Source of the DNA: an uncultured Poribacteria bacterium
GTDB lineage: Bacteria > Poribacteria > WGA-4E > WGA-3G
NCBI GenBank assembly: GCA_951812525.1
Contig: OX638316.1
Span: forward strand, 496,001-560,000
Length of the DNA: 64,000 bases
Direction: 5' to 3'
The position numbers were made by a program, and so were the translations under genes. The notes under the pieces are model-generated. The model saw nothing but the letters and a program-made list of their open reading frames with translations. It did not search any database and was not told the origin of the DNA. Position 1 is the first letter of the stretch; each line of letters begins with the position of its first letter. Positions 10,391 to 61,179 of the stretch are shown piece after piece.

Positions 10391-10555
10391 TATTATAACA
10401 CAAGTTGCTACGTATATGATTTTAGGTCACGAACCCTATTTTTCAGCCAGATGCGTTCATTTTTGCGAAAAGTTTGGCGTGTTCCTTGTCATTTTCGGCA
10501 CAAAGATGCACAACCTAACAGGTTATGCTACAAGGTGGCAATTTGGGTTATTATA
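10391..10555. repeat. MITE-like dispersed repeat, copy 1 (165 bp)
   Basis: This is nearly identical to 61041-61179, apart from 26 extra bases in the middle (after gcgttc). Both copies are bounded by imperfect inverted ends (ttataac..aacttgc / gcaa..gggttattata) and contain nested inverted pairs: tagg/ccta, ccttgt/acaagg and aacct/aggtt. The outer end facing the toxin gene carries TGTTATAAT, an extended -10 on the minus strand. It lies between the toxin gene and the glycyl-tRNA synthetase promoter. Confidence 0.85.
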
Positions 10556-20075: not shown

Positions 20076-20195
20076 TAGGATTTCCTTTTTTTATAGTTGT
20101 CGGTTAACACTTGTGGCAGTTGCACAAGTGTTCTTCGTCTGAAACTGCTCTTGTCCGAAAACCGAAAACTGACGACCAAATAATAGGAGAAAAAT
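20076..20195. promoter_or_regulatory. Divergent intergenic region with perfect hairpin
   Basis: This 120-base region separates the divergent dehydratase and sulfatase genes. It holds a perfect 10-base inverted repeat, aacacttgtg / cacaagtgtt with a 7-base loop (20106-20132), which could be an operator for a dimeric regulator, and a short tail resembling the tcagtt-type repeats seen elsewhere in the window. Confidence 0.4.
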
Positions 20196-36602: not shown

Positions 36603-36792
36603 CAGACATAGCACTCCGTCGGAGTACAGAGCACAATCCCTATCCATAAGAGATAGGTCTGCTGCGTTTTAGGTTGGTGGTCGCGAAATGTAAAGCTAAG
36701 ACAAATTGTGCTTTAGGAGCACAATTTGGAGATCGCTCCTACAGGAAGAAGTCGGGAATCGGAGTTCCCTCCTACAGAAGAACTGAATGATC
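36603..36792. repeat. Intergenic palindromic repeat cluster
   Basis: The 390-base region between the TonB receptor and diketogulonate-reductase genes has no gene. It holds several hairpins: actccg/cggagt, cctatc/gataggt, and a perfect 11-base stem caaattgtgct / agcacaatttg (36702-36728). The segment 36751-36792 recurs with a few changes at 49013-49054. Confidence 0.65.
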
Positions 36793-44522: not shown

Positions 44523-44891
44523 CTACTGGGCGTCGCCATCCATGCCATCGTCCATGCCGTCGTCCATCATGCCGTCGTCCATCATGCCGTCGTCCATCAT
44601 GCCGTCGTCATCCATCATGCCGTCGTCCATCATGCCGTCGTCCATCATGCCGTCGTCCATCATGCCGTCGTCCATCATGCCGTCGTCCATCATGCCGTCG
44701 TCCATCATGCCGTCGTCCATCATGCCGTCGTCCATCATGCCATCATCACCTGTCATGTCGTAACCTTCAGTCATGCTGTCGTCCATCATGTCATCAGTAA
44801 CAGGTGTCATGACCTGCTGTGCTCTTTCGCAGGATACGAAGGCAAAACAACAGACCAACATAGCGATTAAAATCATCTGAAACTTTAGCAT
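44523..44891 (-). CDS. Met/Asp/Gly repeat lipoprotein (MMDDG repeats)
   Basis: A 122-residue lipoprotein. The signal peptide and lipobox F-V-S-C21 are closely similar to those of the adjacent P460 lipoprotein, and both end in Gly/Asp-rich D-A-Q. The mature part is about a dozen copies of M-M-D-D-G, with one copy carrying an extra D. The heme domains of the paralog are absent. Dense alternating Met and Asp side chains could bind Cu(I), Ca or other cations (inference). The gene probably arose by duplication of the neighbouring gene, loss of the P460 domains and expansion of a short repeat. Confidence 0.8.
   Translation of the reverse strand: MLKFQMILIAMLVCCFAFVSCERAQQVMTPVTDDMMDDSMTEGYDMTGDDGMMDDGMMDDGMMDDGMMDDGMMDDGMMDDGMMDDGMMDDGMMDDDGMMDDGMMDDGMMDDGMDDGMDGDAQ
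44540..44746. repeat. 15-base coding tandem repeat
   Basis: About a dozen units of the 15-base unit gccgtcgtccatcat, nearly identical in DNA sequence, with one 18-base unit. It encodes the M-M-D-D-G array in the lipoprotein gene. The near identity of units points to recent slippage expansion. Confidence 0.95.
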
Positions 44892-48916: not shown

Positions 48917-48980
48917 GTCTCGCTCCATTTAAGGTTTGCAGCATAATACCATAAGCCGGCATTTAATTCAAATGTAGCAG

Positions 48981-49054
48981 TTGTCAGTTGTCAGCTATCA
49001 GCAGTCAGTAAGGTCGGGATTCGGAGATCCGTCCTACAGAAGAATTGAACGGTC
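48981..49054. repeat. Short palindromic repeat cluster
   Basis: Positions 48981-49010 contain the ttgtcagttgtcagctatcagcagtcag type of motif; 49013-49054 is a copy of the sequence at 36751-36792 (cggagatccgtcctacagaag type). It lies in the intergenic space between the dehydratase gene (minus) and the TrpD-like gene (plus). Confidence 0.75.
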
Positions 49055-49102: not shown

Positions 49103-49163
49103 AGAATTCTTCACACATTCTACCACAAAAACACGATTGAAGTCGCTCGGAGGACCTTGTGCA

Positions 49164-50654
49164 ATGGAAGATTTTAATACTCATGCATACACACCAGCAT
49201 ATCCAGGACCGAATACAGACCTGCTTGAAGCACAGGCGAGAGTTTGCACGGGACCGCATCAGACGCGTCCATTAGGCATAAATCCCTCGGATTCACCGCA
49301 ACCGGAGCCGATTCTCGAAACGATTCTGAAGTCTATAGCGGGTAGGTTACCGGAAACGGAGACGGCTTCAGGCGCACAAATGGGAGCGTTTTTCGCGGCG
49401 ATGACGCTCCGCGCCTATTTTCCAGAATCGACACAATGGAGTCCGGCAGAAGAGGCAGCATTTCATAAATACCGTTCAGCACTCACAAAACAATCACCAC
49501 CAGAGATCCAGTATCTGATGAACCTCGATTGTGGCTATGCCCCACGGAATCCGACAGAGGCAGTTGTCGTGAAAGCATTGGAAAAGATTTTGCGGGCAAA
49601 ACATTTAAGTTACGTTGAAACCCGCGAGATGTGCGAAGCTATCCTCAGCGACGATGTAAAACCGGCGTTCAAAGGTGCTGCACTTATAGGACAACGGATG
49701 AACCGCGAAACATATCAGGAGGTACGAGGCTATCTTGATGCGTTTTTCGGACCGGAAGCGGTCAAACCTATTGATGTTAGAACGTTGACGCATTTCGGGC
49801 AGCCTTACGATGGCGCAACACGTTACTTTCGTCCGACGCTCTTTGTGGCAGCGGTGCGCGCGGCACTCGGTGAGGCATCACTCCTCCATAGTGTGGATGC
49901 AATGCCGCCGAAGAATGGTGTAACGGAAGAGACTATCTTAAAGGCACTTGGTGCAAACACGCGCTTATCGCTGGCACAAACCGCATCGCTGATTACGGAC
50001 GCATCGATCAGGTTTGGATACATCAGCCAACGCGAGTATTGTCCAGCGGCTTATGATTTGCGCGAATTGCGGGTGCACATCAAGAAACGTCCACCTTGGG
50101 CAGCGACAGAAAAGGCACAACAATTCTTTTCGGCGCAGGAAGCGAATTATATGGTACTCGGCTACTACCATATCGGCTACGAGAAACCGCTCCTTCAATT
50201 GGCGTGGGAACGCGGGCTTGATGCCGCTATCGCTGTGAAGGGTGAGGAAGGAACAAGCCATTATGCCCTGCGTCTTGGAAAGCCGTCTACACATGACCGA
50301 ATGGCAATCAACTATTCGCAAGGCTTCCACCGCGTGAACGGTGTCCGTGAAGACTTCGCAATGGATATCGATCCAGAAATTTACGGATTCAACTATGCTC
50401 GGAGTCCGCGTCCAGAGGTCGTAAGCGCGCAGGCATTCGCGGAAGCGGGTGTGGCAGCTTTATCGGGTGAAAAAGGACACATCTACGATAGGATTCTGCT
50501 GAACACTGCAATGGTTGACTATCTGTTGGGAATCTACCGAGAGCCTGAGGAGGCACTGACACGTGCACAGTCGGTGATGGACAACGGGCGGGCGTTGAAA
50601 CATTTGCAGGCGTACATAACCGTCAGCAATCAGCTATCAGCAGTCAGCATTTAG
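49164..50654 (+). CDS. Anthranilate phosphoribosyltransferase-like protein (glycosyltransferase family 3)
   Basis: A 496-residue protein that resembles the TrpD / glycosyl-transferase-family-3 fold, including the helical N-terminal domain (about residues 80-190) and a C-terminal phosphoribosyl-transfer-like core with V-K-G-E-E-G-T-S-H around residue 370. True TrpD has a G-T-G-G-D motif; here the aligned region is H-F-G-Q-P-Y-D-G-A-T-R, so phosphoribosyltransferase activity is not assured. Start 49164 has a ggagg ribosome-binding site. The last ten residues (V-S-N-Q-L-S-A-V-S-I) are encoded by a repeat element. Confidence 0.75.
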   Translation: MEDFNTHAYTPAYPGPNTDLLEAQARVCTGPHQTRPLGINPSDSPQPEPILETILKSIAGRLPETETASGAQMGAFFAAMTLRAYFPESTQWSPAEEAAFHKYRSALTKQSPPEIQYLMNLDCGYAPRNPTEAVVVKALEKILRAKHLSYVETREMCEAILSDDVKPAFKGAALIGQRMNRETYQEVRGYLDAFFGPEAVKPIDVRTLTHFGQPYDGATRYFRPTLFVAAVRAALGEASLLHSVDAMPPKNGVTEETILKALGANTRLSLAQTASLITDASIRFGYISQREYCPAAYDLRELRVHIKKRPPWAATEKAQQFFSAQEANYMVLGYYHIGYEKPLLQLAWERGLDAAIAVKGEEGTSHYALRLGKPSTHDRMAINYSQGFHRVNGVREDFAMDIDPEIYGFNYARSPRPEVVSAQAFAEAGVAALSGEKGHIYDRILLNTAMVDYLLGIYREPEEALTRAQSVMDNGRALKHLQAYITVSNQLSAVSI

Positions 50655-50697
50655 ATACCGTTCGATCGTTGATTACTGACGGCTGATAGCCAACAAC
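50621..50697. repeat. Palindromic repeat at the TrpD-like gene end
   Basis: An inverted pair gctatcagcagtcag / ctgacggctgatagc (14 of 15 matching) separated by about 27 bases. The left arm lies inside the gene and encodes its C-terminus; the right arm is intergenic between convergent genes and could act as a terminator. Confidence 0.75.
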
Positions 50698-50704
50698 TAA
50701 TTTT

Positions 50705-51847
50705 TTAAATATAACCAGTCGAGCCATCAGGACGGATAGGACAGGTGCGTTGCCAATGGATGTATTCGTTGTCTGTGATTGCTGCTTCGTCCACCTCTAC
50801 ACCCAAACCGGGACGGTCCCGTAACTCCAGATAGCCGTCTTTCGGAAGATAAGGTTCATCTACCCAAGCGTTCCATTCCGTCTCAGTAGGCAAGAGATAT
50901 TCCAAAATTTTGAAGTTCGCTGTTGCAGCGGCGAAGTGTACATTGACAGCGGTTGCCAGTGGTCCCATCGGATTATGAGGTGCAATACTCACGTAGTGCG
51001 CTTCGGCGATCGCGGCGATCTTGCGCATCTCCAGCAACCCGCCGCAGACACAAATGTCTGGCTGAATGATGTCAGCCCCTTGCCCGGCGATGATGTCCAG
51101 AAACTCAAAGCGCGTATAGAGGGACTCTCCAGTGGCGAGTGGAACCTGCATCTGAGAACGTAGACGCGTCCACGCAGGGATGTGCTCAGGTCGGAGCGGT
51201 TCCTCGTAAAAATACGGGTCGTAGGGTGCAAGGGCATTGGCGAGTTGCAGCGCGCGAATCGGCTCGAAGATTTTGGCATGTGGATCGAAGGCGAACTCCC
51301 ACTCTGACGGCGTATTTTCCCGTATCTGCTCAAAATAGGTCGCGGCGGCATCGCAGACGCGTCCCCACCGATCTGCGTCGGGATCAAGCTGATAAGGACT
51401 GGTCTTGAACGCCGTGAATCCCCAATCCTCATGGAGTTTGCGTGCCTGATCAGCGGCTTCAATGCCATCTCTACCACCGATGCCGCGGTAGACACGGATG
51501 CGGTCTCGTGCATGTCCACCGAGGAGCATGTAGACCGGCAAACCCGCTGCTTTTCCACTGATGTCCCAAAGGGCGTGATCAACAGCAGAAATAACAGCAA
51601 GACCGGCACCACCTGGTGGAAAACGAAACTGCTGATGCAGTTTCAGCATGATATATTCAATCCGCCTCGGATCGGCGCCCTGAATCATCTCAAAGATATA
51701 GTCGGCAATGGGTTCAACAGAGAGATCTGGACCCGTAGAGTAAGCTTCACCCCATCCGTAGAGCCCTTCATCTGTTTCTACCTTGATGAGACCACGGGGT
51801 CGGTTACCAAAGCGTGCCATAAAGGTTTTGATAGCAGTGATTTTCAT
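50705..51847 (-). CDS. Enolase-superfamily dehydratase, galactonate dehydratase-like
   Basis: A 380-residue member of the enolase superfamily. Metal ligands D188, E215 and E241, and catalytic H190 and H291, fall at nearly the same positions as in the galactonate-dehydratase-like protein at 18930-20075, so the two are paralogs with probably different substrates. Expected product is a 2-keto-3-deoxy sugar acid. The gene converges with the TrpD-like gene and has only a weak ribosome-binding site. Confidence 0.86.
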   Translation of the reverse strand: MKITAIKTFMARFGNRPRGLIKVETDEGLYGWGEAYSTGPDLSVEPIADYIFEMIQGADPRRIEYIMLKLHQQFRFPPGGAGLAVISAVDHALWDISGKAAGLPVYMLLGGHARDRIRVYRGIGGRDGIEAADQARKLHEDWGFTAFKTSPYQLDPDADRWGRVCDAAATYFEQIRENTPSEWEFAFDPHAKIFEPIRALQLANALAPYDPYFYEEPLRPEHIPAWTRLRSQMQVPLATGESLYTRFEFLDIIAGQGADIIQPDICVCGGLLEMRKIAAIAEAHYVSIAPHNPMGPLATAVNVHFAAATANFKILEYLLPTETEWNAWVDEPYLPKDGYLELRDRPGLGVEVDEAAITDNEYIHWQRTCPIRPDGSTGYI

Positions 51848-52062
51848 TTTTTAACTATGGCCTCCGTTCTGCCCTCCACTTCGTTTCGGGCAGGTTTTTG
51901 GTTAAGTCGCAGGGACTTCAACAGTTGCGCGGGATAATTTCAGGAGGACGTGCGTCAGTTACCTATTCTATTCCTACCACAAACTGATCCTTGCTTAAAC
52001 AGATATCCGATCTAACCACAAACCTCTTAACCGACTGCTGACTGCTAATCGCTGACCGCCAA

Positions 52063-53607
52063 TTACCATGGATGCGTCCGAAACGGTGATGCCGGTAGCC
52101 CTTCCTTGTTCGCTAAATTGGGTTCAGCATTTTGATGCCAACCAAATCGGACTGCAACAGGATTCGCAACGGTGTCACTGGAAACGAGGATTGTGTTGCC
52201 GTCAATTGTTGCTTTCGCTTCGATAAATTGCTTGTCTTCACCTGCGATTTCAAACCATGTGAGCGGCATTTCATCTTGCGCCATCAATCCACTACCGACG
52301 AAATCAAAACTGAGTCGGATTGTGTTTCCCTCTACTTCCATTGATTTGTAGTGCGGACCGGAGTAGGTTACATCATCTCTGCCGTAGGTTTTTGCAAGTG
52401 CCCACAACGCAAGTCGTCTACCCACCTCCTGTTTGTTCCGGGGGTGGATGTCCTTGAGGTTGCCAATGTCCGTTGTCACAGCCATGCCGGTATTCGGGAC
52501 AGATAAGGTTGCTGTTTGTGCTTCCCAAATCTGTGGTAAAAAGAATGGATCTCCGATCCATCCGCCGTAATTAAACGGTGCGAGTTGAACAAAATAGAAA
52601 GGGAAATCACCTTGTCCCCAGACCTCGCGCCATCCGTTGATGAGTGCTTTCATCTTCTCGTGGTAGAGCATACCGTCTTGAAGGTTAGATTCACCTTGAT
52701 ACCAGAGCGCGCCCCGTATAGCATAAGGGACAATCGGATACACCATGCCGTTGTAAAGTCCGGTCGGTCTCGCTTGATGCCTTAGTGAGTGTCTATTTTC
52801 AGGTATCTGCGTAAGACGGGTGTCGGTTTCCAATGCCTCCCGCGTCTCCGCAATCCACGTTTCAATCGCCTTCATTTTCTCGGGAAGTTGCTGGCGATAG
52901 TTTTCATGTGCCTCTTGAATCTCTTTAGATATAGACTCAAGTGCCGGAACACTGGTAAAACCGGCAGGTGGCGTCCACGGTTCAATGCGGGTGCCGCCCC
53001 ACGAGGTATTGATTAATCCGATAGGGACATCAAGGTTTTTATAAAGTTTCCGCCCGAAATAGTAGGCAACGGCAGAGAAACTTTCAATTGTCTCAGGCGT
53101 AGTTTCGGACCAGTCTGCCTCTACGTCATGCTGAAGCAGCCCTGATGGTTTACGCGGCACATCAAACAATCGGATAGTTGGATAGTTCGCTGCGGCGATT
53201 TCTGTCTCGCTGTCTTTTGAGGCACGTACCGACCATTCCATGTTTGACTGTCCGGAGCAGACCCAAACCTCACCGAAAAGGATATTCGTCAGTTCAAGGG
53301 TATTTCCACCAACGATCTTGAGTGTATAGGGACCGCCTGCAGCCATCGCGGGGAGTTTGGTTCGCCAGTTGCCTGCTGCGTCGGCAACCGCGGTGGTTGA
53401 GGAAACGGGTTCTGCACCTTCGTTCTCGGTGCTGAGGGTTATCGTGATTTCCTCGCCTGTGGATGCCCAGCCCCAAATGGGAACTTGTATGTCGCGTTGC
53501 AACACCATGTTATTGCCGATGACGCTGGGTAAAGTAATCTCGGCATGCACGAGGGCTTGTGTAAAGAATAGTAGAAAACCGATAAGAGATAGAGTGATTC
53601 GTTTCAT
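52063..53607 (-). CDS. Sialate O-acetylesterase-like (SASA/SGNH) secreted protein
   Basis: A 514-residue protein with signal peptide (cleavage near H-A22) and an SGNH-type esterase core: G-Q-S-N-M-E-W with nucleophile S121, A-L-W-Y-Q-G-E-S-N as block III, and a distal D-x-H-P-R-N-K near residue 385. Family members remove acetyl groups from sialic acid or other acetylated glycans. The start at 53607 with an aaggg ribosome-binding site is preferred over longer frames that begin inside the neighbouring recD2 gene. Context suits degradation of acetylated polysaccharide. Confidence 0.9.
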   Translation of the reverse strand: MKRITLSLIGFLLFFTQALVHAEITLPSVIGNNMVLQRDIQVPIWGWASTGEEITITLSTENEGAEPVSSTTAVADAAGNWRTKLPAMAAGGPYTLKIVGGNTLELTNILFGEVWVCSGQSNMEWSVRASKDSETEIAAANYPTIRLFDVPRKPSGLLQHDVEADWSETTPETIESFSAVAYYFGRKLYKNLDVPIGLINTSWGGTRIEPWTPPAGFTSVPALESISKEIQEAHENYRQQLPEKMKAIETWIAETREALETDTRLTQIPENRHSLRHQARPTGLYNGMVYPIVPYAIRGALWYQGESNLQDGMLYHEKMKALINGWREVWGQGDFPFYFVQLAPFNYGGWIGDPFFLPQIWEAQTATLSVPNTGMAVTTDIGNLKDIHPRNKQEVGRRLALWALAKTYGRDDVTYSGPHYKSMEVEGNTIRLSFDFVGSGLMAQDEMPLTWFEIAGEDKQFIEAKATIDGNTILVSSDTVANPVAVRFGWHQNAEPNLANKEGLPASPFRTHPW

Positions 53608-53641
53608 CTGTTGCCCCTTAGAATTTAAATGGTTAATTATA

Positions 53642-56038
53642 TCAATCCTCTTGAAGGCGTTCGGCGAGGTAACTGTTGCGTTCCATGACCTGATTGTTGC
53701 GGATGCAAATAGCAAGTGCTTGTTTGGTGCCGACGATCACGACACGCTCCTTCGCACGGGTAATGCCGGTATAGAGAAGATTCCGTTGTAGCATGAGATA
53801 GTGTTGCGTGTGCAATGGCATAACAACGGCAGGATACTCGCTACCTTGTGCTTTATGGATAGTCGTAGCATACGCCAAGACGAGTTCTCCTAAATCTGCT
53901 GTGTCGTAAGCTACCTGTTTATCGGGGAACTGAATGCGGACTTTTTTGTCGATGTGCTCAATTGCGACAACCCTCCCGATATCGCCGTTAAACACGTCGT
54001 AGTCGTAGTTGTTGCGGATCTGCATCACCTTATCACCGATACGAAAACCACCTATAGTGCGAGATCGATCGGAAAACTGAGATACTTGTCCACGAGAACG
54101 TGGTCCGAAACGCGCCTTTTCCAACGGGTGGGTTGCTGCTGGAGCGGCATATTCGACGTTCAATACCTCTTGGAGGCGTTTGTTGAGACTTTCAGTACCG
54201 AGTGTCCCGCGCCGCATCGGACATAGAAGTTGGATGTCGTCTATGGGATGGTAATCGTAGTGTTGCGGTAGCCGATCAGCAATGAGGGAACATATTAATT
54301 CAACAATTTCCTCCGGGTCGTCTTCTTCTATAAAGAAAAAATTCCGATCCGCGTCGCCAGTGAGCTCTGGAAAATCGCCCTTGTTAATACGATGGGCATT
54401 CATGACGATCATACTCTCCTGCGCTTGGCGGAATATTTCAGTCAATTGGATGACGGGTATCCTCTGCGAATCAATGAGTGACTTGAGGACATTGCCCGCA
54501 CCGACAGAGGGCAGCTGATCGACATCCCCGATGAGGATGAGAGTCGTATTGGGTCGGATTGCTTGCATCAGACGGTTCATCAGGACGAGATCTACCATAG
54601 ATGTCTCGTCAACAATGACCACATCTGTGTCCAATGGGTTCTGCCTATTTCGTTTAAAGGCGTTAATCTGTGGAGAAAATTCAAGAAGCCGATGGATGGT
54701 TTTGGCTTCACCGCCGGTTGTTTCACTGAGGCGTTTCGCGGCGCGTCCCGTGGGTGCCGTTAAGGTGATACGTCTGCCCTGCACTTCAAACAAGCGAATC
54801 ATACCAACGGTCGTCGTCGTTTTACCGGTGCCGGGTCCGCCGGTGAGAATCATCGCACGTGCTGTCATCGCAGTCTGGATGGCTTCGCGCTGCTGTGGTG
54901 CGAAATGGATACCCATCTCCTGCTCCAACTCGGTCAGGACTGCGGTATTGATAGATGATGCTTCTGGCTTTCCGTGGATGAAGCCTTGATCTCCATAAGA
55001 TAGGAGCCGCAAAAACTGGTTTGCGACTCCCAGTTCGGCATAGTAAAAAGGAGCGAGATAGATGGCGGAGTGGTCATCAGTTATCGGTTGTGAGTTGTGG
55101 GTTGAAAGAGGTGCTTGATGCGCGTCAGAAGTTTCTGGCTGAAGACTATTCACTGAAGACTGAGAATTAGTCTCGTAATCGGTATGTATCTCACCTACGG
55201 CAACTCGTTCCTCGGTGTGTAGCAAGTCTGTAAAATCGGGGACCATCACCTCTTCTTTTTCAATGAGGGCAAGGATACCTTCCTCAATCGCTGTCGGCTC
55301 CTGTTCAAGCATGGTTTGGCATGCCTCAATAAGTTCGCCATGATGTTGAAAGACGTGCCCTTCATCTGCCTTTTGGCTCAGAACGTATTTGATCCCCGCT
55401 TCGACTCTGTGTGGCGCGTCCTTATCTATGCCGAGTTTTTGTGCGATTGTGTCTGCCGTTACAAATCCGATGCCGTAAATATCATCTGCGAGACGATAAG
55501 GATTCTCTGTAACGATGGCGATTGCATCGTTTTCATAAGTCTTGTAAATCTTTGCGGCGTGTGTTGTGCTGACATCGTGTGATTGGAGGAAAAGCATAAC
55601 GTTTTTAATTTCGCGCTGTGCCTCCCACGCCTCCTTGATGATTTTCACGCGATGTCGTCCGATGCCAGGGATACGTGCTAACTTTTCAGGCTCCTGCTCA
55701 ATGATATCCATGGTATCCATGCCGAATTTGTGAACGATGCGTGTCGCCATCTTCGGACCGATACCCTTAATCAGACCGGAGCCGAGATATTTTCTTAATC
55801 CGACTACATTTGCGGGCAGGATCGTTTCATACTTCTCAATTTGGAACTGTCTGCCGTATCTGGCATTGTCTACCCACTCACCTTGGAGCAGCAAACTCTC
55901 GCCTGGATTGACAGACGCCAAATTGCCGACGACAGTGATGAGTTCGGAATGGTCTCGCGCGGAAAGCCGACCGACAGTATAGCCGGTATCAGGGTTTTCA
56001 TAGACGATACGTTCAAGTATACCCTGTAGCGTTTCCAT
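53642..56038 (-). CDS. recD2: RecD2-type ATP-dependent DNA helicase
   Basis: A 798-residue RecD-like helicase. The N-terminal OB-like domain and two helix-hairpin-helix motifs (G-I-G-P-K-M-A and I-P-G-I-G-R-H-R) precede an ATPase with Walker A G-G-P-G-T-G-K-T-T near residue 400, Walker B V-I-V-D-E-T-S-M-V-D, and motif V/VI (Y-A-T-T-I-H-K-A-Q-G-S-E-Y). It unwinds DNA 5'-3' in repair and replication rescue. An in-frame Ser/Asn/Asp/Glu-rich insertion at about residues 285-322 is derived from a dispersed repeat. Confidence 0.95.
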   Translation of the reverse strand: METLQGILERIVYENPDTGYTVGRLSARDHSELITVVGNLASVNPGESLLLQGEWVDNARYGRQFQIEKYETILPANVVGLRKYLGSGLIKGIGPKMATRIVHKFGMDTMDIIEQEPEKLARIPGIGRHRVKIIKEAWEAQREIKNVMLFLQSHDVSTTHAAKIYKTYENDAIAIVTENPYRLADDIYGIGFVTADTIAQKLGIDKDAPHRVEAGIKYVLSQKADEGHVFQHHGELIEACQTMLEQEPTAIEEGILALIEKEEVMVPDFTDLLHTEERVAVGEIHTDYETNSQSSVNSLQPETSDAHQAPLSTHNSQPITDDHSAIYLAPFYYAELGVANQFLRLLSYGDQGFIHGKPEASSINTAVLTELEQEMGIHFAPQQREAIQTAMTARAMILTGGPGTGKTTTTVGMIRLFEVQGRRITLTAPTGRAAKRLSETTGGEAKTIHRLLEFSPQINAFKRNRQNPLDTDVVIVDETSMVDLVLMNRLMQAIRPNTTLILIGDVDQLPSVGAGNVLKSLIDSQRIPVIQLTEIFRQAQESMIVMNAHRINKGDFPELTGDADRNFFFIEEDDPEEIVELICSLIADRLPQHYDYHPIDDIQLLCPMRRGTLGTESLNKRLQEVLNVEYAAPAATHPLEKARFGPRSRGQVSQFSDRSRTIGGFRIGDKVMQIRNNYDYDVFNGDIGRVVAIEHIDKKVRIQFPDKQVAYDTADLGELVLAYATTIHKAQGSEYPAVVMPLHTQHYLMLQRNLLYTGITRAKERVVIVGTKQALAICIRNNQVMERNSYLAERLQED
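55075..55172. repeat. TCAGTTATC repeat inserted in frame in recD2
   Basis: This segment of recD2 aligns over about 95 bases with the intergenic element at 58843-58941, including the shared ttgatg..g..tcagaagt.tctg block, the atcagttatc start and the ctgaagact end. It keeps the reading frame. Confidence 0.85.
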
Positions 56039-57504: not shown

Positions 57505-58833
57505 TCAAATTGTCAATTGAATGTTAAATTCGTTTTTCCCGGGTTGCAATGTGAGACGAATAAAAAGTAGGTGTTCTCCTACCCATCTGACATCATCTGC
57601 GTTAGACTCGGTTAGTTGTAAGCCGTCGTGGTCGCCCCAGACTGTTATCCCGTAGGGCATTGCCCTTGTCGATTCTACTGTGATGGCGATATGTAATTTT
57701 GTGCGGTGTCGCGTCGGTGAAAAGCCAGTGAGCGTCGGTTTTTGCGTCACAAGCGGTGACACCTGTTCGCCAGTATAATTTTTAATTTCAACAGGCTCCA
57801 TAGTCCCTTCAACGAAGGTTAATTCACATGCGGCATCGTAATAGCACATTTTTAACGCCGCCTTCGAAACTTCAGTTTCGTCCTGTGTTGTCGGAACTGT
57901 TTCTACAATAGTCGTCGGTTCGGTCCGTTTGCACTGCGTAATATAATCATCAACGATCTCAGAGAGCGACAGCGATTTAGTGTTTTGATTGCCAACAACA
58001 TGAGCGAAATATGCGTCCAATCGTTCCAGTCCCTCTTGTCCGAGTTGTGCGACAGTGTAAGGGTCTATGTGCTCCACATAACCGAGCCAGCGATTCCACG
58101 CGGTGTTCCCTACATAGGTTTCGTAATGCTGCTTCGCTGTCCCGTTTATGAGTGCTGCGCGAAGATTATGGACATCCTCGGCGAGGTGTCCGGCGGTATA
58201 ATACGGAACGCCAACAATTTTCTTAAATGGTGCCGCACCGTCTTCGCCAGTGTCCCTTCGAGTTAGGATGGTATCAATGTACGTTGAAGCCTCAAACGGA
58301 TAAAAGCATCCAAAGCCACCGCGGTCGAGTTCCGCTTTGGATGCCCGAGTATCTTCAGAATCACTATCTTCTTGTTTCCAATGATAACCCCAGAGCCCTC
58401 GGAACCCCGACTGTTCAAGCGTGTCGAGGAAGACATCGTGCTTGAACGCTGCGCCTGCAACACTGGGTTCCGCCCAAGGTATAGCGCGTTTGAGTCTTTC
58501 CCACTCTCTGGTTATATATCCCGGTAGTTTCTCTCGCATTGTAACGAAATGCGATGCCATAGCTTCCGTACTATTACCGGGATTCGCGTTTTGTTCCGCC
58601 TCCCAATTGGCATCCCAGATGGGTTTGGCATCGAGTATCAGCAAAGGCGCATCGCCATTCTCCGTGTGCCACGTCGTGAGCAATTTAGCAATTAATTGGA
58701 CGGACTTGGTGTCTGTTGCCCATGTTATCGGTATACGGTGCTTGTGGGCGACCTCCGCGAGTAGCTGGACACCTTCGAGCAGTCGCTCCCGGTCTTCGCC
58801 TATTGCTGTGCTTACCAATCCATAATTCAACAT
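57505..58833 (-). CDS. Protein of unknown function, possible polysaccharide-deacetylase-like N-domain
   Basis: A 442-residue cytoplasmic-type protein with no signal peptide. Residues about 1-200 (I-P-I-T-W-A-T-D-T, L-L-I-L-D-A-K, G-F-R-G-L-W-G-Y-H-W) hint at the NodB-like polysaccharide deacetylase or a related TIM-like fold, and the last 100 residues form a beta-sandwich (Y-G-I-T-V-W-G-D-H-D-G). No complete catalytic motif is visible, so the function is open. It is a single gene downstream of a repeat element. Confidence 0.7.
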   Translation of the reverse strand: MLNYGLVSTAIGEDRERLLEGVQLLAEVAHKHRIPITWATDTKSVQLIAKLLTTWHTENGDAPLLILDAKPIWDANWEAEQNANPGNSTEAMASHFVTMREKLPGYITREWERLKRAIPWAEPSVAGAAFKHDVFLDTLEQSGFRGLWGYHWKQEDSDSEDTRASKAELDRGGFGCFYPFEASTYIDTILTRRDTGEDGAAPFKKIVGVPYYTAGHLAEDVHNLRAALINGTAKQHYETYVGNTAWNRWLGYVEHIDPYTVAQLGQEGLERLDAYFAHVVGNQNTKSLSLSEIVDDYITQCKRTEPTTIVETVPTTQDETEVSKAALKMCYYDAACELTFVEGTMEPVEIKNYTGEQVSPLVTQKPTLTGFSPTRHRTKLHIAITVESTRAMPYGITVWGDHDGLQLTESNADDVRWVGEHLLFIRLTLQPGKNEFNIQLTI

Positions 58834-58842
58834 TTTTTCAAT

Positions 58843-58941
58843 GATTATCAGTTATCTGTTGTTGGAAACCACCCGTTGAAAGCGGTTTTTGATGTGCATC
58901 AGAAGTCTCTGACTGAAAACTGATAACTGAAGATTAACAGC
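58843..58941. repeat. TCAGTTATC repeat, intergenic copy
   Basis: About 99 bases bounded by the inverted ends tcagttatc and gataactga; related to the insertion in recD2. It sits just upstream of the unknown gene at 57505-58833. Confidence 0.8.
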
Positions 58942-59078
58942 TCACCTTTTGTCCCTTCCGTTGGTGTTCGCATTTAATAACGTAGAGTTACGCCGTTGGG
59001 CTACGCTAAAACAGATCCACGAAGTAGCGATCCGGAGATCGTGCATATACAAGCATCGGGAGCACAAAATCTATTTTA

Positions 59079-59786
59079 CTATTCTAAAAAGACGGTAACA
59101 CCCATGTCCGCATATTTTTGACGGGTGCTGGGGCTGCCATTTCTAAAGCAGACAGCGGTCGTTGTTCCTTCCAAGGCTCTGGCGACGTATTCAACACAAG
59201 CGTCTACGGTCTGGAGTGCATGATTCGGGTGGCTCTCAATACTGAACGTCAGATCAGCGGGACCGAATGAGAGACAATCAACACCAGGTTTAGCGAGGCC
59301 TCGAGCATGCGTAACGGCTTCTATGGATTCGACTTGCATCCAGAGAACACCGTATGAGTTCCACCAATCGGCGTACTCAAGTCGTTCTTTGCCTTCGGAA
59401 TTCACGCGCGGTGCACCACCCCAACTCCGGATCCCCTGTTGCGGGTAGTAGAAAGTAGCGACTGCCTCGTTTACCGTTTCGTCTAATTCAACCTGTGGTA
59501 CCTCAATACCAGAGGGACCTAAATCGAGGTAGTTGCCGATGAGATAGGCGTTTCGGGTATGCTTAATCCGGAAGTTGACGAAAATACCCAGTTCATTCGC
59601 CATATTACAGAAGGCAACAAGTCGATCCTCGTTGTATGGAGAGTGTTGGCTATCCACGGCGACAAAATCATAACCACCCTCTTCGACTTTGGCGACGAGT
59701 GCGTCGGCAGATGCTGCCATAGAGACGTTAGCGCCATAGACGAGTTCCCCGTTATGTATCCGCTGTTTCAAATTTGCTGCTGACAT
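59079..59786 (-). CDS. HpcH/HpaI-family aldolase (2-keto-3-deoxy acid aldolase-like)
   Basis: A 235-residue class II HpcH/HpaI aldolase: G-A-N-V-S near residue 18, V-A-V-D-S-Q-H-S-P (metal or substrate H48), G-I-E-V-P-Q-V and M-Q-V-E-S (E metal ligand), and G-P-A-D-L (D). Relatives include 2-keto-3-deoxy-L-rhamnonate aldolase (RhmA) and hydroxy-heptenedioate aldolase. The start at 59786 has a gagga ribosome-binding site. It pairs logically with the rhamnonate-dehydratase-like gene at 47747-48916, which is distant. A perfect promoter and a leader hairpin precede it. Confidence 0.9.
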   Translation of the reverse strand: MSAANLKQRIHNGELVYGANVSMAASADALVAKVEEGGYDFVAVDSQHSPYNEDRLVAFCNMANELGIFVNFRIKHTRNAYLIGNYLDLGPSGIEVPQVELDETVNEAVATFYYPQQGIRSWGGAPRVNSEGKERLEYADWWNSYGVLWMQVESIEAVTHARGLAKPGVDCLSFGPADLTFSIESHPNHALQTVDACVEYVARALEGTTTAVCFRNGSPSTRQKYADMGVTVFLE

Positions 59787-59883
59787 TGTCATTCCTCGCT
59801 TCTTTGGTGCAGCTTGCAAGCCGAAATTTAGTGTTAAATACTGCCTGCGGTGCCCTCGTACAATTCCGTTTTTCTACAACCTC

Positions 59884-59994: not shown

Positions 59995-60340
59995 CTAGGG
60001 TCATTTAGTTTTCGCGATTTTCATAGATTTTTCGAGGAAGTCGCGATCGGGATTTGCAGGATAAGAGGATTTAGAGAATAAAAGGGTGTGTGGTGAATCT
60101 TTAATTTCACAGTTTTCATAGTAAACCATAAAATATGGTTGATTTGGGAAGATGCCATGAACACAGGTGGTGACTGGGTTTTTGGTAGTTTTGGGGGAAG
60201 GTTAGTTTTATAGTTACTATGAAAATTTCATAGTGTCGATGGATTGTCTGAAGCAGCATTATACAGGATTCGGTCGTCCGTTTTTTCCTTTAGTTTGTAT
60301 GTTCATGGGGTTGGATATAGGTTACTGTATACAGAAAGGG
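59995..60340. other. Hairpin-dense gene-free region
   Basis: This stretch shows no convincing gene. It starts with ctagggtcatttagtttt, a half-element also seen at 63812, and has the motif tttcatag three times (60019, 60114, 60226), two of which are arms of palindromes: actatgaaa-a-tttcatagt (60216-60234) and aaccata-aaa-tatggtt (60124-60140). Confidence 0.5.
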
Positions 60341-60490
60341 GTAGGGAAAGTAGGGGGAAAAGTATACGGAAACTAGTAGGGAAAGTAGGGGAAAGTAGGG
60401 GAAAGTAGGGGGAAAGTATACGGAAACTAGTAGGGAAAGTAGGGGAAAGTAGGGGAAAGTATACGGAAACTAGTAGGGAAAGTAGGGGGA
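60341..60490. repeat. Nested G-rich tandem repeat
   Basis: Three outer units of gtatacggaaactagtagg plus inner 10-base units gtaggggaaa (about three each). GGG and GGGG runs recur about every ten bases on the plus strand, which fits G-quadruplex spacing. No gene overlaps. Confidence 0.9.
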
Positions 60491-60523
60491 ATTTGTATGT
60501 TATGTTGGATTTGGTAATGTTGG

Positions 60524-61040: not shown

Positions 61041-61179
61041 TATTATAACCCAACTTGCTACGTATATGATTTTAGGTCACGAACCCTATTTTTCAGCGAG
61101 ACGCGTTCCTTGTCATTTTCGGCACAAAGATGCACAACCTAACAGGTTATGCTACAAGGTGGCAACTTAGGTTATTATA
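61041..61179. repeat. MITE-like dispersed repeat, copy 2 (139 bp)
   Basis: The shorter copy of the repeat at 10391-10555, lacking a 26-base middle segment. It lies upstream of the archease promoter. The remaining gap between 60848 and the archease gene is AT-rich with no gene. Confidence 0.85.

Follow-up and report, generated by a model that had tools for sequence, protein, structure and literature searches.

A dispersed heptamer-armed element inserted long ago, and in frame, in the recD2 gene of a Poribacteria genus

The window analysed here is a stretch of 64,000 nucleotides from an uncultured Poribacteria bacterium. It belongs to a 5.06-Mb single-contig genome (G000). The gene of interest is recD2 (53642-56038, minus strand), which encodes the SF1B helicase RecD2 (798 aa). 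The protein matches TIGR01448 (helicase_RecD2, E 2.7e-265) with 882 bits, above the cut-off of 500. Its Pfam domains are OB_YrrC, HHH_RecD2 (residues 141-230), AAA_30, SH3_13 and UvrD_C_2, with the ATPase starting at residue 380. All the domains of known RecD2 proteins (TIGR01448; D. radiodurans structures 3e1s, 3gp8 and 3gpl) are present, and the ATPase motifs are intact. What differs is the linker between the N-terminal region and the motor, which is ~65 aa here and ~14 aa in the RecD2 of other Poribacteria families. The spacer between the threonine synthase-like gene (thrC) and recD2 is only ~70 bp in G000, G037 and G030. Many relatives have an extra gene there (L102-L121), whose product we take to resemble a Uma2/DUF820 endonuclease-like protein.

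The preliminary description reported that a stretch of about 95 bases in recD2 (55075-55172) can be aligned with an intergenic repeat at 58843-58941. This similarity is far above chance. A local alignment of 55076-55160 with 58847-58934 scores 64.5, while the best of 2000 dinucleotide-Markov shuffles scores 26. BLASTN aligns 55101-55159 with 58875-58933 at 81% over 59 bp, and in the outer arm the two copies agree at 15/16 positions, with gaps of 6 nt and 9 nt in between. The insertion leaves the frame intact. Its ~33 codons (residues ~290-322) encode a polar linker in the interval between the HHH region and the ATPase, just as had been described.

The same description called the repeat dispersed, and this is correct. 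Copies are too diverged for BLAST-type searches (a genome search with this intergenic copy, taken as 101 nt, found no match but itself), so profile models were used. R1 was built from the recD2 elements and intergenic copies of G000 and its relative G037. It has at least 122 matches in this genome, with some copies matched once on each strand. R2 rests on 22 intergenic copies and contains neither recD2 nor its intergenic partner; those 22 copies were chosen with R1, which contains recD2, so their selection is not wholly independent, but the contrast with 34 outgroup loci given below is. R2 matches the recD2 element (55069-55168, minus strand; 40 bits, E 1.5e-11) as well as the intergenic copy, hereafter e2 (58837-58943, minus strand; E 8.6e-11), which lies between genes 59079-59819 and 57505-58833 and was also delimited by spacer comparison. 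Other copies in the window lie at the 3' ends of the convergent genes 49137-50654 (plus strand) and 50705-51847 (minus strand) (50622-50706, E 1.3e-9) and within the spacer 20076-20195 (20087-20184, E 7e-7). Two partial copies were found: one ends at the stop codon of gene 52063-53715 on the minus strand (52002-52063, E 9e-7), and the other is a heptamer arm only (48975-49018, E 1e-6). The pair formed by recD2 and e2 is not special, since the genome has on the order of 100 copies or more.

A copy is ~100 bp long and has inverted arms of degenerate TAACTGA heptamers flanking a short core (~35 bp). The left arm has TTATCAG-type heptamers, the core is often AAGAGG...CCTCTT, and the right arm has heptamers of inverse sense (AACTGATAACTGAC). 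Most full copies show these terminal inverted repeats. A search for tandem TAACTGA and its close variants gives 42 matches in this genome vs 5 for the reversed control. In recD2, read in the coding sense (minus strand), the 5' arm (55141-55169) is degraded, and the alignment with relatives has (AGTCAGC)n there in most of them. The core (55104-55140) reads ..CAGAAACTTCTGACGCGCATCAAGCACCTCTTTC, and the 3' arm (55074-55103) is AACCCACAACTCACAACCGATAACTGATGA, without stops in the coding register. An example peptide spanning the linker ends in ..HSAIYLAPFYYAELGVANQFLR. Cores vary among copies, and that of recD2 belongs to a subfamily whose clearest member has the palindrome AAGAGGTATTGATACGCATCAAATACCTCTT (L318). 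Because cores differ, RNAalifold gave no consensus structure for the family. Self-complementarity was compared with 500 shuffles: 17 of them score as high as the copy at 50622 and 4 as high as the copy at 20087, whereas e2 is weak (83/500). The recD2 copy has lost its self-complementarity in this genome (287/500), so that its palindrome is deduced from relatives and from other members of the family. Rfam gave no match at E<=0.1, a search that does not test the Rickettsia elements discussed below. In the literature searched, we found no published account of such repeats in Poribacteria.

The window contains other repeats too. A second dispersed repeat of ~140-165 bp occurs at 10391-10555 and 61041-61179 (93-96% identical). 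A short repeat, GTCGGGAATCGGAG..CCTCCTACAGAAGAA, occurs at 36751-36792 and 49013-49054 (86% identical), and strings like it lie next to several heptamer copies in other parts of the genome. A 15-nt tandem array (CATGCCGTCGTCCAT) lies in a predicted gene at 44523-44806 and gives a low-complexity protein repeat. There is also a G-rich imperfect tandem array with units of ~54 nt (GTAGGGAAAGTAGGGG) at 60306-60491.

To follow the insertion across relatives we used 37 genomes that belong to the same genus (g1) as G000 and 46 from elsewhere in the phylum. Almost every RecD2 match in the named genome collection comes from a 'Candidatus Poribacteria' MAG, and identities go down to 59%. The gene was obtained from 36 of the 38 g1 genomes, the relatives being mostly MAGs. 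R2 matches the linker in 33 of these 36 loci (best E 5.5e-17), and the three short genes that it misses (G006, G020, G028) keep the core. At 34 recD2 loci of other Poribacteria genera and families R2 has no match. The idea that this is an ancestral RecD2 segment, which would put the same stretch of protein in distant homologs, was rejected on these 34 loci. At E<=1e-9 the family has at least 11-96 matches in g1 genomes (many counts reach the scoring limit), none in sister genus g2, and 0-7 in sister genus g3; for other genera the count is zero in 15 of 16. The repeat family is abundant only in g1. The preliminary description took the insertion to be recent. Since all 36 recD2 genes of the genus have the element or its core, this must be wrong. 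As judged from its presence and absence in these genomes, the insertion is specific to the genus and predates its diversification.

The intergenic copy has a different history. An orthologous copy is found in G037, and there is a clean empty site in G032, G024, G036, G015 and G007, where the genes corresponding to 59079-59819 and 57505-58833 are spaced by two bases (TAG-TA-ATG). Other relatives have different elements in this gap, and e2 itself is common to G000 and G037 only. Across 17 relatives the junction has different elements by species, usually directly after the TAG stop, which makes it an insertion hot spot. Comparison of empty and filled sites has the left edge fixed after TAG and the right edges varying, and no duplication was seen. 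Since e2 is limited to two genomes and five relatives have an empty site, the recD2 copy is the older of the two, and the younger e2 cannot be its source. Their special likeness points to copying out of recD2 or to a subfamily common to both, and not to a capture by recD2.

One can imagine that recD2, which lies ~3 kb away, gave rise to e2 by copying or gene conversion before G000 and G037 split. The recD2 copy does predate e2, and e2 matches the recD2 of G037 at 51 of 59 bases (score 78), while other placed copies of G000 score at most 38. However, the genus has cores of this kind at about 10 places that are not recD2, and a similar one is at 1383872 in G000 (L141). Similar cores outside recD2 make a third source of e2 possible. 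The e2 copy of G037 also scores only 43 against the recD2 of its own genome and 54 against other copies. We regard seeding from recD2 as possible but would not bet on it.

It is worth considering what the linker itself can tell us. Its length is 9-22 aa in other families, 42-69 aa in g2 and g3, and 45-82 aa in g1. The long linkers of g2 and g3 occupy the same place in RecD2 and are unrelated in sequence to that of g1. Since linkers were already long and unrelated in the sister genera, the element entered an expanded, relaxed linker on the branch leading to the genus. With long linkers across the whole family, the exact ends of the insertion cannot be placed. AF2 with a 34-sequence alignment gives a pLDDT of 77 (40 with 11 near-identical sequences). 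Residues 271-318 are below 50, a confident strand begins at 325, and the flanking domains are mostly 80-90. Between species the element region is 49% identical and the rest of RecD2 86%. Together these values imply that the linker is a variable and probably disordered loop, although low pLDDT in a gap-rich part of the alignment is weak evidence for this. Small hairpins are nested in frame within the element in G002 (17-bp arms, TTTGACCAACAACTCGT), with a different one in G008; the linker regions concerned are those of L026, L031 and L008 (recD2 of G002, G008 and G024). Units of CTTCCAAT are nested inside the element of G015 and G031.

The preliminary description spoke of domestication as a protein linker. 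Capture in frame is supported, but a gain of function is not, and tolerance fits at least as well. True domestication would mean that selection maintains the inserted linker for some role in RecD2, such as spacing the N-terminal region from the motor. It has been kept in 36 of 36 genes over the age of the genus, and none has gone back to a linker of ~14 aa. However, a selected spacer does not sit well with 49% identity next to 86%, a length that ranges from 45 to 82 aa, or other repeats nesting inside. No constraint other than stop avoidance is seen. Selection on the linker appears to act only on frame and the absence of stops. We think a selected function is quite improbable.

It is still harder to argue that nothing was inserted. 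A disordered linker rich in Ser, Gln, Thr and Asn could have grown in place by slippage and converged on the heptamers. Linker length does vary freely, the arms clearly expand and contract, and at that place the sister genera have long linkers of unrelated sequence. But the DNA of both inverted arms and of the core matches intergenic copies (E-values down to 5.5e-17), and it does so only in the genus that is rich in the family. The same anatomy is found at independent sites of other genes. Growth in place is very improbable. We give even less credence to a recent capture, in which the 58843-58941 repeat was copied into the recD2 of this species and is now being domesticated: e2 is indeed the best match of the recD2 copy among the placed copies of this genome (63 vs <=45), but the presence of element or core in 36/36 genes and the five empty e2 sites refute it unless most recD2 copies were gained independently, and the direction, if any, is from recD2 to e2 or else parallel descent from one subfamily.

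The recD2 insertion is no isolated case: throughout the genus, members of the family have repeatedly entered the loops of proteins. With genes called by a finder that uses a simple codon model, 68 copies were placed in this genome: 43 intergenic, 19 touching a gene end, and 6 inside a predicted gene (the window is ~91% coding). Genes are strongly avoided and gene ends favoured. For 27 of 62 copies an edge falls no more than 12 nt from a stop codon, vs 15.9 expected in the same gaps (maximum 24 in 200 placements). There is no enrichment near starts (17/62 vs 16.9 expected). In-frame copies in this genome are found in a BatA/VWA protein, a Reg_prop beta-propeller protein, and two proteins without a Pfam match. 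We did not count as evidence the intragenic candidates L171 and L172 (N-termini with uncertain starts) or 4777868 (an uncertain 69-aa ORF). Orthologues of the BatA-like gene have the in-frame insert present or absent by species, at two sites, and in G031 a family copy of 68 bits lies in an open ORF. A loop of the propeller gene ranges from ~20 to ~110 aa, with in-frame presence and absence between species and repeated DSNQPSAVSRQQ units in G036. Near query residues 547-752 of the propeller gene (L236-L256) several species have extra large in-frame inserts, with strong family matches inside the open frame.

How can such an element be read through? A heptamer arm gives the same heptapeptide in any frame because 7 = 1 mod 3, so each unit shifts the frame by one. 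The TCAGTTA sense is open in all frames, and the TAACTGA sense reads LITDN-stop-stop (PMC4679880). One arm of an inverted element is therefore bound to run into stops. In the recD2 genes of g1 the stop-bearing arm typically reads T-D-N-R-Q-L-T-T-D-N, with ACCGACA as the heptamer in the stop register (TGA to CGA, TAA to CAA). TGA is found in 0 of 23 stop-register heptamers of recD2 vs 26 of 60 in the other registers (Fisher 3.7e-5) and 102 of 154 heptamers of copies outside genes (p 2.7e-10). It must be noted that heptamers of related species are not independent and that an open frame is required by construction, so stop avoidance here describes frame keeping and is no proof of function. Outside genes, element frames are open in 10 of 162 cases. 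The heptamer arms give a simple account of reading without frameshifts, and two transitions per 21 nt are enough to make the stop-bearing arm translatable.

We argue that a dispersed heptamer-armed element was genuinely inserted into recD2, in frame and long ago. Most probably that element is selfish and MITE-like and is tolerated in disordered loops. In the ancestor of g1 it entered a recD2 linker that was expanded and unstructured by then. The stop-bearing arm would have become readable once its stop-register heptamer had undergone both TGA to CGA and TAA to CAA (..TDN-RQ-LTTDN..). Later the arms grew, shrank or were overwritten, and further small repeats nested inside, always in frame. Depletion from genes and enrichment beside stop codons are what one would expect of a selfish family. 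The data show directly that the recD2 segment belongs to the family, where it falls in the phylogeny, that stops are avoided, and that other sites are filled in some species and empty in others; spread by transposition and the lack of a benefit are inferred. Neither a target-site duplication nor a transposase was identified for the family, and no partner IS was recognised. A broader scenario is that Poribacteria independently evolved protein-invading repeats whose arms are readable in any frame and which spread in a non-classical way (e.g. templated hairpin copying), with copies in genes, such as that of recD2, seeding intergenic ones and conserved proteins steadily gaining disordered loops. 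Taken as a whole, we consider this scenario unlikely.

The family can be compared with three known systems. Like MITEs, it is short and non-coding, has inverted terminal arms and a high copy number, and is present or absent in close relatives. Unlike MITEs, it has arms that vary in length by heptamer units, and no target-site duplication or partner transposase was found for it. The heptamer itself has been described before. Direct TAACTGA repeats are known from Beggiatoaceae, Cyanobacteria and Bacteroidetes (MacGregor 2015, PMC4679880), a study from which Poribacteria are absent. The Beggiatoaceae-type arrays are mostly intergenic, direct, and just upstream of start codons, with only one inverted case; some overlap ORF ends, and the few inside ORFs are in the reverse sense that avoids stops (PMC4679880). 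The Poribacteria family shares the heptamer and its variants and is likewise mostly intergenic. Unlike those repeats, its arms are inverted around a core, it is enriched at stop codons with no preference for start codons, and it is also read in the stop-bearing sense after stop loss.

A further parallel is found in Rickettsia. Rickettsia palindromic elements (RPEs; Ogata 2000, 2002) are palindrome-like, ~100-150 bp long, and occur both between genes and in frame in unrelated genes (PMC10969869). They differ between species, the added peptide is tolerated, and nearly half of the RPEs of R. conorii are in ORFs; the frequency of this in-frame invasion in Rickettsia has been termed unusual (PMC10969869). 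The Poribacteria family is also both intergenic and in frame inside unrelated genes. The dozens of sequenced relatives allow presence, absence, age and stop loss to be traced at each site, so the question of how a selfish repeat becomes a protein linker is directly testable here. There are also differences. The host phylum is unrelated, the arms are heptamer arrays, the core is not conserved as a peptide, and most Poribacteria copies are intergenic, with nearly every frame closed. By analogy the Poribacteria family would work like the RPEs. In-frame invasion by short palindromic repeats, best known from Rickettsia, would then be the same strategy with another architecture in a distant uncultured phylum.
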